From the NCBI RefSeq assembly GCF_018139625.1, contig NZ_JAGSOH010000053.1:1-46882 (forward strand): a stretch of DNA of 46,882 bases, written 5' to 3'. The position numbers and the translations under genes were made by a program. This stretch comes from Actinospica acidithermotolerans (GTDB lineage Bacteria > Actinomycetota > Actinomycetes > Streptomycetales > Catenulisporaceae). Below, piece after piece: positions 34,911-40,181 of the stretch. The first letter of the stretch is position 1. Every line of letters starts with the position of its first letter. The notes under the pieces were generated by a model, which was given only the letters and a program-made list of their open reading frames with translations, did no database searches and was not told where the DNA came from.

Positions 34911-34929
34911 CACTGTACACGCGTGTGCA
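34887..34929. promoter_or_regulatory. Two TetR operators in the TetR/epoxide-hydrolase gap
   Basis: Dyad A is TGCACACTGCTGTACA (34887-34902) and dyad B is TGTACACGCGTGTGCA (34914-34929), with centres 27 bp apart. Both share the TG[C/T]ACAC...GTGT[A/G]CA form found upstream of the AhpD-like gene at 22998-23033. The 18-bp stretch TGCACACTGCTGTACAGT here differs at a single base from TGCACACTGGTGTACAGT there. Confidence 0.78.
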
Positions 34930-34940
34930 ATACTGGTGTC

Positions 34941-35546
34941 GTGCCCACCGAGTCCTTTCGTGCGCGATCGATGAACGAGACACGCAATCGCATCCTCGAC
35001 GTCGCGCTCGACGTGCTCGGAGAGAAACCCGACGCCGGAATGGGGGAGATCGCCACCGCCGCCGGTGTCGTCCGGCGCACGGTCTACGACCACTTCCCCT
35101 CGCGCCTGGACCTGGTCCGGACACTCACGGAACGGGCCGTCACCGAGATGACGGCCGTGCTCACCGACGTCAACGCCTCCGACGCGGACGCGGACGCGGA
35201 CGCGGCGTGGGCCGAGTTCATCGCCCGCCTCTGGCCGCTCGCGCACCGGTACCGGGTACTGCTCGCGCTGCGCCGCGGCGAGTTCGGCGAGGCGATCCAC
35301 GCCCTGCTCGGGCCGCTCGACGAACTCCTCGCCGGCCTCGTACAACGCGGCCAGGACGGTGGCGTGTTCGCGAAGCATCTGCCTGCCGCCCTGCTGAGCC
35401 AGGCCGCCTACGGGGTCGTGTTCGCCATCGCGGACCACGGCCGATCGGGCGCGACCCTCGACGCCCGAGCAGCGACGATCACAAGCCTCATGATGCTCGG
35501 AGTCCCCGAGCCACGCGCCACCACACTCGCGGACAACCAGCCCTGA
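34941..35546 (+). CDS. TetR family transcriptional regulator
   Basis: The product has about 201 residues from GTG 34941 (MPTESFRARSMNETRNRILD); ATG 34971 is an alternative. The helix-turn-helix is IATAAGVVRRTVYDHFPSRL at about residues 38-57, preceded by RILDVALDVLGEKPDAG. The C-terminal domain is helical with an acidic alanine-rich linker (ASDADADADAAW). It probably controls the divergent (now broken) epoxide hydrolase, itself and, through matching operators, the AhpD-like gene at 23.1 kb. The ligand may be an epoxide, lactone or other electrophile, judged only from the neighbours. Confidence 0.9.
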   Translation: MPTESFRARSMNETRNRILDVALDVLGEKPDAGMGEIATAAGVVRRTVYDHFPSRLDLVRTLTERAVTEMTAVLTDVNASDADADADAAWAEFIARLWPLAHRYRVLLALRRGEFGEAIHALLGPLDELLAGLVQRGQDGGVFAKHLPAALLSQAAYGVVFAIADHGRSGATLDARAATITSLMMLGVPEPRATTLADNQP

Positions 35547-36612: not shown

Positions 36613-36996
36613 TCAGCGCGCGGCGAGGGCGGCGGCCACGGCGGTGGCGAGCGGGGTCGTGGGGCGTCCGATCAGGCGGGCCAGGTCGCCGCTGTCGGTG
36701 TGCAGCCACCGCGTCGGATGCCCTGATCGGCGTCGGCGAGCAGGTGCGCGAGGGCGTCGGACAGGCCCGCCTCGGCGAGGACGCGGGCGTGCGCGGTCTC
36801 GGGCACGTCCGTGTAGCGCACCTCGGTGCCGGATCGCCTGGTGATCTCGGCGGCCAGTTCCGCCAGGGTGCACGCCGGGTCGCCGCCAAGTTCATAGACG
36901 CGGTTCTCGTGGTCTTGGCCGGTGAGGACCTCGGCTGCTGCTGCGGCGTAGTCGACGCGGGCCGCTCCGCTCACGAGTCCGTCGCCGGCACCGGAT
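36613..36996 (-). pseudogene. NmrA-like gene, 3' half with a frameshift
   Basis: The minus strand reads GAGDGLVSGAARVDYAAAAA, VYELGGDPACTLAELAAEIT and LSDALAHLLADADQGI, then in another frame HTDSGDLARLIGRPTTPLAT and AVAAALAAR. It closely follows the C-terminal half of the intact NmrA-like protein at 29.1-29.9 kb (GAAGEGRVSAASRADYAEAA, DSGDLSRLIGRPTTPLAD). The NAD-binding half is gone, replaced at about 36996 by IS4 sequence, and a frameshift near 36710 breaks the rest. Confidence 0.82.
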
Positions 36997-37000
36997 CGCG

Positions 37001-37115
37001 GTGGGGGTGCTCACGCGTGGGTGCCGCCTGCGCTGGTCGGCGAGGTGCTGGCCGCGTGTGAGCGGCCCGAGCAGCGTCATCGGATGCTCCCGACGCGGTT
37101 GGCGACGGAGAAGAT
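37001..37115 (+). mobile_element. IS4-type transposase N-terminal fragment
   Basis: After VGVLTR in one frame, the next frame reads VPPALVGEVLAACERPEQRH and RMLPTRL. This is the usual beginning of actinomycete IS4-type transposases (L-T-x-x-x-P-x-E-L-V-D-x-V-L-A-x-T-x-x-x-x-x-R-x-R-x-L-P-x-R). Only about 35 codons remain. Its left edge coincides with the break in the NmrA-like gene. Confidence 0.6.
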
Positions 37116-37138
37116 CTTCCTCGGACTTCGATCGTCGG

Positions 37139-37762
37139 TCAGCGTCCGTCTACGGGACGGAGATCGACGAGTCGGAGCATCGCGGGGAGTAGGTCGCTTG
37201 CCAGCGGGTCGGCGGCTTGCTCGTCGATCGCTCCCTCGAGCGCGAGGCTGGTGTACCCGTGGACGAGTGACCATACTGCGTAACTCTGCACTGACCCCGG
37301 GTCCTCATCGGACGTCGATCCGGCGTCCGTGCCGCGGAGGACGCGATCCAGTGCGCGCAGGGCGCGGTGCTTCTGCTCGGCCAGTTCCGGATCGTCGTAG
37401 TCGAACTGCGTCATGCGCCACATGAGGTCGAACAGCGCGCGGTTGTCCCGCGCGAACGCAACGTATTCGACTGCGAGGCCCGTCACTCGCTCGCGCGCAT
37501 CGAGCCCGGAGCACTCCACGCCCTCGAGGCGCTCGCAGAGCTGGCGGTAGGCGCGCGTGGCGAGCGCGCCGAGCAGCCCGCGCGTATCGCCGAAATGGTG
37601 CTTCGGCGCGGACTGCGACACGCCGGCTCTGCGCGCTGCCTCGCGCATGCTGAAGCCGGCGACGCCGGTCTCGGTCAGCACCTCCAAGGCGCTTTCAAGC
37701 AGCGCCGCGCGCAGGTTGCCGTGATGGTAGCGATCACCGGTTCTAGCTTGCTCGGTCACCAT
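37139..37762 (-). CDS. TetR family transcriptional regulator
   Basis: The product has 207 residues (MVTEQARTGDRYHHGNLRAA). The Y-H-H-G-N-L-R start and the helix-turn-helix FSMREAARRAGVSQSAPKHHFGDTRGL are typical of one TetR subgroup with a TetR_C_33-like ligand domain (YVAFARDNRALFDLMWRM, WSLVHGYTSLALEG). It is divergent from the NAD-dependent epimerase/reductase gene. The 76-bp gap holds a perfect 13-bp inverted repeat, so autorepression and repression of the epimerase gene are likely. Confidence 0.92.
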   Translation of the reverse strand: MVTEQARTGDRYHHGNLRAALLESALEVLTETGVAGFSMREAARRAGVSQSAPKHHFGDTRGLLGALATRAYRQLCERLEGVECSGLDARERVTGLAVEYVAFARDNRALFDLMWRMTQFDYDDPELAEQKHRALRALDRVLRGTDAGSTSDEDPGSVQSYAVWSLVHGYTSLALEGAIDEQAADPLASDLLPAMLRLVDLRPVDGR

Positions 37763-37771
37763 GATACGTCC

Positions 37772-37817
37772 ATCTTGACAGTGAATAGATCGGCTGTAAA
37801 CTACTCACTGTCAAGAT
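37772..37817. promoter_or_regulatory. Divergent promoters inside a perfect 13-bp inverted repeat
   Basis: ATCTTGACAGTGA (37772-37784) and its exact reverse complement TCACTGTCAAGAT (37805-37817) are separated by 20 bp. Each arm contains TTGACA, the -35 consensus, pointing inward. On the plus strand TTGACA (37775-37780) is followed after 16 bp by TAAACT (37797-37802), a good promoter for the epimerase gene. On the minus strand TTGACA (37814-37809) faces the TetR gene, with a weaker -10 around 37785-37791. The operator and both promoters therefore coincide. Confidence 0.82.
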
Positions 37818-37838
37818 TGTCGATCGTGGGAGACGGGC

Positions 37839-38858
37839 ATGGCGGAGACGGTACTGGTCACGGGCGTTTCTGGATTCATCGGCGGCCACATCGCCGCTGA
37901 GCTTCTTCGCCGCGGGTACGCGGTCCGCGGGTCGGTGCGTTCGCCGGCCCGCGGCGACGAGGTGCGCGCCGCGATGGCGGCCGCCGGGGTGGACGTCGCG
38001 TTGCTGGAGATCGTGCGACTCGACCTCCTCGCGGACGAGGGCTGGTCGGCCGCCGCCGAAGGCTGTCGATTCGTGCAGCATGTCGCGTCCCCCTTCGTCA
38101 CGACGAAGCCGAAGGACCCAGACGATCTGATCCGGCCCGCTGTTCAGGGCACGACGAGGGCGGTCAACGCCGCGCTCGACGCGGGCGCCCAGCGGGTGGT
38201 GGTCACCTCCTCCCTCGGGGCCTTGCAGTACGCCCCGGTGCGTAACGGCCACCTGTTCACGGCGTCCGACTGGACCCCACTCGACCGGCGGGGGCTCGGC
38301 GCCTACGTCACCTCGAAGGTGCGGGCCGAGCGTGCGGCCTGGGATATCGCCGAGCGGCGCGGCGCGCGCGACTCTCTCGCCGTCGTCAACCCCGGCGCGG
38401 TCATCGGCCCCCTTCTCTCCGACGACCCCGGAACCTCCGTCACAGCGATCCAGCAGATCATGGCTGGGGCGCTGCCGATGATTCCCGACCTGCGACTGCC
38501 CTGGATCGACGTGCGGGATGTGGCCGACGCACAGATCGAGGCCATGACCGCGACGTCAGCGGGCGGCAGCCGCACGATCGTCGCCACGGACCCGTCTTCG
38601 CTCATCGATGTCGCCACTGTGCTGCGCGAGCGGCTTCCCGAAGCGAGCGCGAAGATGCCCAGCCGCGCGATGCCGACCTGGTTGACCTGGGTCGCGAGCA
38701 TCTTTGAAACTCAGTTGCGCGACAACCGATGGCTCATCGGATCGGCGCAGCGCTTCGACCGGGGCCCCGCCGAAGCGCTCCTTGGCCGGCCTCTCCGCTC
38801 GATACCTGATGCGATCGAGGAGACCGCCCGAAGCCTCGTCGAGCGCGGACTCGTCTAG
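37839..38858 (+). CDS. NAD-dependent epimerase/dehydratase (dihydroflavonol-4-reductase-like SDR)
   Basis: The product has 339 residues (MAETVLVTGVSGFIGGHIAA). It is an extended SDR: GVSGFIGG nucleotide loop, GSVRS for NADP preference, VQHVASPFVTT, the VVVTSSLGALQY strand carrying the Ser, and YVTSKVRAE with the catalytic Y-x-x-x-K. The pattern matches bacterial aldehyde or ketone reductases related to dihydroflavonol reductase. Cytoplasmic, reducing an unknown carbonyl substrate with NADPH. Controlled by the divergent TetR protein through the inverted repeat at 37772-37817. Confidence 0.93.
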   Translation: MAETVLVTGVSGFIGGHIAAELLRRGYAVRGSVRSPARGDEVRAAMAAAGVDVALLEIVRLDLLADEGWSAAAEGCRFVQHVASPFVTTKPKDPDDLIRPAVQGTTRAVNAALDAGAQRVVVTSSLGALQYAPVRNGHLFTASDWTPLDRRGLGAYVTSKVRAERAAWDIAERRGARDSLAVVNPGAVIGPLLSDDPGTSVTAIQQIMAGALPMIPDLRLPWIDVRDVADAQIEAMTATSAGGSRTIVATDPSSLIDVATVLRERLPEASAKMPSRAMPTWLTWVASIFETQLRDNRWLIGSAQRFDRGPAEALLGRPLRSIPDAIEETARSLVERGLV

Positions 38859-38939
38859 AGCGGGCAATTAAGGATGGTTCGCGTGGCGGTTCGCGCGCGA
38901 TCGGCTGATCGGGGAACTCCGCGACAGACGATTGCCATC

Positions 38940-39323
38940 TCAGGAGGAGCTGTTCTGGTGGGCGTCGAGGCCTGCCGGGGCCGCGGCGCCGGAAAGGTAG
39001 CGTTCGAGCATCTCCCGTCGCAGTGAGAGTTGCTGTTCCTGCTGCGCGAGTTGGTCGCGGACCTGCTCGACGCGGGCGAGCAGTGCGCCGCAGTCGCCTT
39101 GAGGTTCGGCGGATCCGGCGCACGGCAGGATCTGCCGGATGATCTCGGAGGGTAGCCCGGCGCGGTAGAGATCCTGGATGAAGGCGACCACCTGCACGGC
39201 CTGCTCACTGTAGTCCCGGTATCCGTTGGTGCTTCGGCTTGCGGGCAGCAGTCCTTGTTCCTCGTAGTAGCGCAGTGAACGGGTGCTGACGCCGGTGGCT
39301 CTGGCGAGTTCTCCGATGCGCAT
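38940..39323 (-). CDS. MerR family transcriptional regulator
   Basis: The product has 127 residues (MRIGELARATGVSTRSLRYY). The N-terminal winged HTH is canonical (EEQGLLPASRSTNGYRDYSE), followed by AVQVVAFIQDLYRAGLPSEI and a C-terminal coiled-coil helix (LLARVEQVRDQLAQQEQQLS). There is one Cys pair region (PCAGSAEPQGDCGAL), whose two cysteines could sense metal or redox state but may only be structural. Divergent from an SDR gene whose promoter region carries the matching dyad. Confidence 0.93.
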   Translation of the reverse strand: MRIGELARATGVSTRSLRYYEEQGLLPASRSTNGYRDYSEQAVQVVAFIQDLYRAGLPSEIIRQILPCAGSAEPQGDCGALLARVEQVRDQLAQQEQQLSLRREMLERYLSGAAAPAGLDAHQNSSS

Positions 39324-39347: not shown

Positions 39348-39369
39348 TTGACATTCACGTTAGTGTCAA
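39348..39369. promoter_or_regulatory. MerR-type operator/promoter upstream of the SDR gene
   Basis: The 22-bp dyad has arms TTGACATTCAC and GTTAGTGTCAA (9 of 11 positions symmetric). TTGACA (39348-39353) is a perfect -35; candidate -10 sequences (TTTAGC/TTAGCG, 39372-39378) sit 18-19 bp away. This is the over-long spacing that MerR proteins correct by twisting DNA. The SDR ATG at 39387 is close to the expected transcription start, so the mRNA may be leaderless. Confidence 0.72.
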
Positions 39370-39386
39370 AGTTTAGCGTGGCCGAC

Positions 39387-40181
39387 ATGGACGTCACAAC
39401 GAGAGAACCGATCAAGCAGGGCACCGTGCTGGTCACCGGCGCCACCATGGGAATCGGGGCGGCGATCGCCGAGCGAATGGCGCGGGAGGGTATGGACCTG
39501 GTGCTGGTCGCGCGCGACGGCGCACGGCTGGAGGCCGCGGCGAAACGTCTGCGTGCCGATCACGGCGTCGAGGTGCTCGCCGTTCCGCTGGACTTGTCGC
39601 GCGAGCAGGCGTCGGTGCGGCTGGCCGAGCGGCTCAGGGATGAGCGGATCGAGGTCGAGATCCTCGTCAACAACGCCGGTACAGCCCTGGCCGCGGCAGT
39701 CGCCGCTACGGATCCGGCGCGAGTGCGGGCACTGGTGGATCTGAACGCAGGGGCGGTGGTGGAATTGACCTCGCTGCTGCTGCCCGGCATGATCGCACGT
39801 GGCCACGGCGCGATCGTGAACATCGCCAGCACCGCCGCGTACGCACCGGCGCCGTATAACGCGGCCTACGGCGCCTCGAAGGCGTTCGTGCTCTCTTTCA
39901 CCCGTGCCTTGTGGGCGGAGACGCTCGGGACCGGGGTGCGGGTGGCGGCGGTCAGCCCCGGAGCGACCGAGACCCCGATGAACACCCGCCAGGCCCCCGG
40001 CAAGCGCCAGCCGGAGCAGGTGGCAGAAACCGTGATCAAAGCCCTGCGGGGCCGCGGCCCCGCCGTCGTCGACGGCCGGTTCAACTCTGTCCAGGCCTTC
40101 GTCTTCGGTCGCCTGCTACCGACGCGGACCGCCGCCCGGATCACCGGGCAGTTCTTCCGCAAGGCAGTCTGGGAAAACTGA
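39387..40181 (+). CDS. Short-chain dehydrogenase/reductase
   Basis: The product has 264 residues from ATG 39387 (MDVTTREPIKQGTVLVTGAT); an upstream in-frame start at 39348 lies inside the operator and is rejected. It is a classical SDR: TGATMGIGAAIA cofactor loop, LVARDGARLE, NNAGTA, the Ser in IVNIASTAAYAPAPYNAAYG, and the Y-G-A-S-K catalytic motif, then SPGATETPMN. It resembles DltE/SadH-type oxidoreductases with a C-terminal basic or hydrophobic tail (LLPTRTAARITGQFFRKAVW). Likely activated by the divergent MerR protein. Confidence 0.92.
   Translation: MDVTTREPIKQGTVLVTGATMGIGAAIAERMAREGMDLVLVARDGARLEAAAKRLRADHGVEVLAVPLDLSREQASVRLAERLRDERIEVEILVNNAGTALAAAVAATDPARVRALVDLNAGAVVELTSLLLPGMIARGHGAIVNIASTAAYAPAPYNAAYGASKAFVLSFTRALWAETLGTGVRVAAVSPGATETPMNTRQAPGKRQPEQVAETVIKALRGRGPAVVDGRFNSVQAFVFGRLLPTRTAARITGQFFRKAVWEN

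Follow-up and report, generated by a model that had tools for sequence, protein, structure and literature searches.

The 46-bp palindrome that lies between a TetR-family repressor gene and a divergently transcribed reductase gene is best explained, with a probability that we put at a little over 80%, as a pair of mirror-image 19-bp operators of the neighbouring TetR, each predicted to bind one dimer and together controlling the reductase gene and probably tetR itself. As a type of switch, a self-regulated TetR with a divergent target is ordinary. The palindrome nevertheless offers, for a group of TetR regulators that are still uncharacterised, a predicted binding site open to test, and it links two protein features to two parts of that site, which could help to name targets and to build reporters for ligands.

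The repressor gene (positions 37139-37762, reverse strand) encodes a 207-aa TetR-family protein of the TetR_C_33 type, with both domains above their curated cut-offs (Pfam PF00440 TetR_N, E 3.5e-8, 33.6 bits, cut-off 24; PF13305 TetR_C_33, E 1e-14, 55.4 bits, cut-off 26.8), and its top PDB sequence match is the probable regulator 3on2 (E 4.3e-22). The divergent gene (37839-38858, forward strand) encodes a 339-aa extended-SDR protein whose top PDB sequence matches (cinnamoyl-CoA reductase 5tqm, E 1.1e-37; 4qtz, E 1.3e-33) name cinnamoyl-CoA reductase and dihydroflavonol-4-reductase, despite its membership of the Pfam Epimerase family (PF01370). No listed NCBIfam model reached its cut-off against this protein, and no DNA-binding family is among its domain matches. 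The original prediction, which named the neighbours a TetR and an epimerase gene, had the gene pair right, but the putative epimerase is an extended SDR closest to reductases in the PDB; SDR reductase would be a better name. A 100-aa open reading frame that lies downstream of the TetR gene (36672-36974, reverse strand) partially matches TIGR03649, which we take to be an NmrA-like model (profile positions 174-257 of 287, far under the cut-off), and may represent what is left of a decayed SDR gene. Adjoining the studied pair is a second divergent pair of regulator and SDR genes, in which a MerR-type gene (38940-39323, reverse strand) and a short-chain dehydrogenase gene (39348-40181, forward strand) start about 25 bp apart, and another TetR_N regulator, without a second Pfam domain, is encoded at 34923-35546 (forward strand).

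The perfect 13-bp inverted repeat with a 20-bp spacer that first drew attention to this gap is exact. ATCTTGACAGTGA occupies 37772-37784, its exact complement occupies 37805-37817, and TTGACA is present in each arm. The resulting 46-bp block, ATCTTGACAGTGA-N20-TCACTGTCAAGAT (37772-37817), matches once and in 0 of 100 shuffles, and it is the sole perfect 13-bp inverted repeat with a spacer of at most 60 bp in the window, by which we mean the whole 46,882-base stretch of DNA analysed; a looser extension of the repeat has 22-nt arms that are 86% complementary. The gap between the two genes is 76 bp long and 49% G+C, in a window that is 68% G+C, and first-order resampling of the gap produced a repeat of this length in 0 of 20,000 trials. 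Because resamples of the whole window held 0-2 such pairs each, with at least one in 5 of 20, the length of the repeat alone is indecisive, and its position and conservation are what decide.

Conservation was followed in a homologue set of 53 loci obtained by searching genome contigs with the TetR. Eleven of these (L009-L019) are close orthologues from Nocardia, Streptomyces, Actinacidiphila, Actinocatenispora, Haloactinopolyspora and Amycolatopsis, with TetRs 74-87% identical to the window's and a divergent reductase that is 69-88% identical in 11/11, so that the reductase is present in all 12 close sequences, window included. In 12/12 the block measures exactly 46 bp, both sites are present (at most 2/12 mismatches) and the site spacing is exactly 27 bp. 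In the reductase sense, the invariant pattern of the 12 sequences is ATCTTGACA.TGA..AGA......GTAAACT.CTC...GTCAAGAT, and conservation therefore reaches past the 13-bp arms and across the 19-bp sites described next.

The most plausible reading of the two arms is that each forms the strong half of its own predicted 19-bp TetR operator, with the consensus ATCTnnnCAnTGnnnAGAT. Predicted operator 1, ATCTTGACAGTGAATAGAT (37772-37790, forward strand), has 0 mismatches to this consensus, with a strong outer half, ATCTTGACA, and a weaker inner half. Predicted operator 2, ATCTTGACAGTGAGTAGTT (37799-37817, reverse strand), is its mirror copy, and its sole mismatch to the family motif falls where the reductase -10 element overlaps. 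The two centres are 27 bp apart, 8 bp separate the sites, which do not overlap, and the strong halves face outward in mirror image. The inner halves are degenerate in the window's clade (6/9 and 5/9 symmetric positions by hand count), so the assignment of one dimer per arm rests on relatives, in which each site is a full palindrome. On these grounds the claim that the arms are TetR operators with one dimer each is very probably correct, but the 13-bp arm is not the operator unit: the arms correspond to the strong halves plus the operator centres, the unit is 19 bp, and relatives space the sites differently. The same full palindromes led us to reject the 46-bp block as one operator for a single dimer.

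More distant relatives carry related sites. The distant set comprises 42 loci (L020-L061; by record title 36 Pseudomonadota, 5 Actinomycetota and 1 Myxococcaceae) with TetRs about 30-43% identical to the window's, L059 being a 57-residue match only, and palindromes such as ATCTTGACAGTGTCAAGCT or ATCTTTCCAGTGGAAAGAT lie upstream of these genes. The 15-mer CTTKMCASTGKMAAG (at most 2 mismatches) has 63 sites in the 15,540 bp that lie close to the TetR start versus 6 in 198,898 bp elsewhere, and is found in 32 of the 42 loci, 31 of which have exactly two sites. With the consensus ATCTnnnCAnTGnnnAGAT (at most 2/12 mismatches) the corresponding counts are 64 and 5 in the same lengths, with sites in 35 of 42 loci and exactly two in 25, although these loci are related by descent and the site counts are not independent events. 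Thirty permuted palindromes run on the distant set gave a mean of 0.13 near sites and a maximum of 2. A second set was drawn from 394 class genomes, 13 of which have a TetR match at E 1e-30 or better, giving 10 loci once the window and two duplicates of L016 and L017 were dropped. Here the consensus, which was written after these loci had been seen and is not blind to them, found 17 sites near the TetR start and 1 elsewhere, in 8/10 loci. With up to 3 mismatches allowed, the previously fixed 15-mer found 13 near sites (7/10 loci) and 2 elsewhere; a limit of 2 left 4 sites in 3/10 loci. A plasmid set (8 of 45 records), retrieved once the consensus had been fixed, gave a weaker result, with one consensus site each in 3/8 loci and none elsewhere in 25,108 bp. 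In the five plasmid loci without a site, APYKHF, APTRHF or APRRHF replaces the APxHHF of the recognition helix, a difference that came to light only after the count, and the plasmid result narrowed our claim to TetRs with an HHF helix.

The arrangement of the two sites bears on whether the dimers act together. It is conceivable that the whole 46-bp palindrome forms a single cooperative operator on which two dimers touch or loop the DNA, somewhat as in QacR, whose dimers overlap at a fixed spacing. The exact 27-bp spacing in all 12 close sequences does imply some spacing constraint in the clade, and the weak inner halves could need the help of a partner dimer. We nevertheless consider a cooperative operator unlikely. 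Among relatives the two sites stand 18 to 59 bp apart without a preferred helical phase (R 0.24, p ~0.24, for 25 spacings, in which the Variovorax group and the close group were each entered once and L081 and L082 were omitted), and L078 has near-identical mirror arms like the window's that are 38 bp apart instead of 27. Furthermore, the constant 27 bp is also explained by a constant reductase promoter. Cooperative binding across this distance, though conceivable, is not needed. QacR is described as a tetramer on a 28-bp palindrome (PMC4482099). The present arrangement resembles a QacR-type operator in that an inverted repeat would take at least two dimers of a TetR-family protein, and differs from it in that the sites are separate and variably spaced in relatives. 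At locus L081, a TetR/SDR pair (38% and 40% identical to the window's) is accompanied by two operator-like direct repeats of diverged sequence, 18 bp apart, in the stretch from about 81 to about 45 bp upstream of the TetR match.

Both predicted operators overlap a predicted reductase promoter. Its -35 element, TTGACA (37775-37780, forward strand), lies inside operator 1, and its -10 element, TAAACT (37797-37802), follows after a 16-bp spacer and overlaps operator 2 by 4 bp. TTGACA-16-TAAACT (37775-37802) scores 10/12 in a simple promoter scan and is the sole promoter-like match in a scan of 36800-38800. Since both elements are identical in 12/12 close sequences, we conclude that operator and core promoter overlap, and the original claim that they are the same sequence holds in the reductase direction, where an operator half-site doubles as the -35 box. 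In the TetR direction the claim is not supported, the -10 there being poor. No TAnnnT-type -10 is present on that side at 16-18 bp from the TTGACA of the arm, and the candidate TCTATT (37784-37789, reverse strand), 19 bp past the TTGACA at 37809-37814, is weak and doubtful. When TetR-side choices at spacers of 16-19 were scored, TCTAYT at a 19-bp spacer was the best arm-linked choice in 7/12 sequences (TCTATT in 1, the window; TCTACT in 6) and other hexamers were best in 5/12 (TCTGCT in 1; TCATCT in 2; CATCTT in 1; CAAGAT in 1). The TCTAYT hexamer also sits in the inner half of the operator, which could explain its conservation. A tetR promoter at the repeat is thus possible, as a weak one.

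These observations weigh against the proposal that two equal face-to-face promoters share an operator and a -35 box, so that tetR and the reductase gene would form a bistable switch, a reading that we judge very improbable. TTGACA does occur in both arms, TCTAYT could serve as a weak -10 in the 7/12 sequences in which it was the best choice, and polymerases would exclude each other if both promoters were real. Only the reductase side, however, is good and conserved. TTGACA is not kept in the Variovorax operators, which, read by eye, appear to lie over sequences resembling a -10 element instead (TGGTAAGAT and the AATATC complement). One operator for each promoter may be the general rule, with the sharing of TTGACA its local form. 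A repressor bound to both sites would also silence the reductase gene and probably tetR rather than toggle between them, and no double-negative loop is visible because the reductase is an SDR and not a regulator.

Paired operators with one dimer each, our preferred reading, would instead act by simple occlusion. Transcription of the reductase gene is expected to start at about 37808-37810, so that operator 1 would cover the -35 element and operator 2 the -10 end and the start, and a dimer on either should silence the gene. With one or both operators occupied, tetR would probably be off as well, making the repressor autoregulatory. We hypothesize that a small ligand, perhaps a carbonyl compound akin to the substrate of the reductase, would bind the TetR_C_33 domain, free the repressor and turn both genes on.

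This arrangement has close parallels among known systems. The two operators of the Tn10 tet region overlap promoters, with no cooperativity between them indicated (PMC3037858). As in Tn10 tetR/tetA, with its tetO1 and tetO2, a TetR-family gene and its presumed target share a region with two promoter-overlapping operators, here a 76-bp gap between divergent genes with two palindromes over the predicted target promoter, and a dimer on each operator would silence the genes until a ligand releases it. Unlike the Tn10 operators, those predicted here are 19 bp long, have another sequence and carry one degenerate half, with the strong halves facing outward as mirror images; the target here is a reductase rather than an efflux pump, and the tetR promoter is only a weak candidate. 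A TetR gene less than 200 bp from a divergent gene, with palindromic sites between, is described as a standard arrangement in Streptomyces and mycobacteria (PMC4482099). The present locus resembles these divergent TetR/enzyme pairs in its layout; their motifs are shown in that survey as logos. Literature searches on this operator or on TetR_C_33/WHG regulators yielded no description of the operator among the matches listed, and none of the titles listed for short operator strings concerned a TetR regulator.

The reductase genes offer a comparison of their own. A reductase search of 394 genomes gave 51 matches, and the 30 for which a locus was retrieved were compared. Three, namely the window and close orthologues, each carry both sites; one, L107, has a 37% identical TetR nearby and one site; and in the 26 without a TetR match in the retrieved stretch the consensus ATCTnnnCAnTGnnnAGAT was found in 0/26. 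A looser match to the 15-mer occurs in 3 of these 26, in two cases 14 bp before the match start. The predicted operator, then, follows the TetR and not the reductase. This also speaks to the notion that the repeat is unrelated to the TetR and represents two -35 boxes, a hairpin, a terminator or the end of a mobile element. An inverted repeat with two TTGACA hexamers would fit such an origin, but we find it barely credible, since conservation spans the 19-bp sites and tracks the TetR and its recognition helix, no terminator-like site was found in 36800-38800, and Rfam gave no match at gathering score in 37100-38900. A terminator, an RNA element and a mobile-element end were each rejected on these scans and on the fact that the repeat keeps its place between this pair of genes, and twin -35 boxes were rejected as the origin of the repeat because Variovorax has the same operator with TTTCCA in place of TTGACA.

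Within the window's own genome the two arms are the only exact matches to ATCTTGACANTGANNAG, and the repressor therefore looks local; five more matches appear at 2 mismatches, versus 4 of a reversed control pattern. Across the 394 class genomes the inverted-repeat pattern occurs in 2, both times beside this TetR; a close TetR also occurs in a third genome (G177), whose variant repeat the exact pattern missed. Close TetR orthologues (E <1e-90) are patchy, occurring in 3/394 class genomes, window included, and the two other genomes of the same genus yielded no orthologue, only a single short match (51%, 69 residues) close to the end of a contig. The best TetR matches are in Nocardia, which together with the patchy distribution suggests that the locus spread horizontally.

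Two features of the protein appear to track the operator. A site (by either motif) is present in 59/63 loci whose TetR has an HHF recognition helix, leaving 4/63 without one, and in 1/8 with RHF or KHF (Fisher p 2e-6, uncorrected for kinship and with the split chosen after seeing the data). Two further helix types among the 73 loci compared, with one locus each and both with a site, were kept out of the Fisher test. The second feature is an N-terminal YHHG motif, which is absent from five TetRs (L022, L023, L025, L035 and L049). Sites were picked by their inner 15 bases at up to 4 mismatches, and the outer A, T, A and T positions gave on average 3.49/4 matches at 77 sites from 45 of the remaining 59 loci (L060 has an arm that could not be resolved), versus 0.62/4 at 8 sites lacking a YHHG arm, the best sites of L022, L023, L035 and L049; no operator site was found at L025. 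This suggests that the YHHG arm reads the A/T flanks of the operator, although the five TetRs without it are all actinobacterial, perhaps of one clade, and may represent a single event.

From these comparisons we lean, by a modest degree, towards a broader proposal in which, in Actinomycetota and Pseudomonadota alike, a TetR branch defined by the N-terminal YHHG arm and the APxHHF helix shares a single operator code, ATCTnnnCAnTGnnnAGAT, frequently present twice. Partner genes (reductase, RPE65-type oxygenase, DUF2306, ABA4-like, DoxX) would be swapped freely, the arm would read the outer A/T flanks and the helix the inner part, and the operator would thus be predictable from the protein sequence. 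The 18 ORFs scanned next to other TetRs, each taken from a different locus, include RPE65-type oxygenase, DUF2306, ABA4-like, DoxX, DUF1707, thioesterase, monooxygenase-like, SDR and HTH_67 proteins, with one lacking a family and one below cut-off. RPE65-type oxygenases adjoin the TetRs of L032 (Variovorax) and L060 (Bradyrhizobium), and ABA4-like or DUF2306 membrane proteins adjoin those of L031, L050, L021 and L039.
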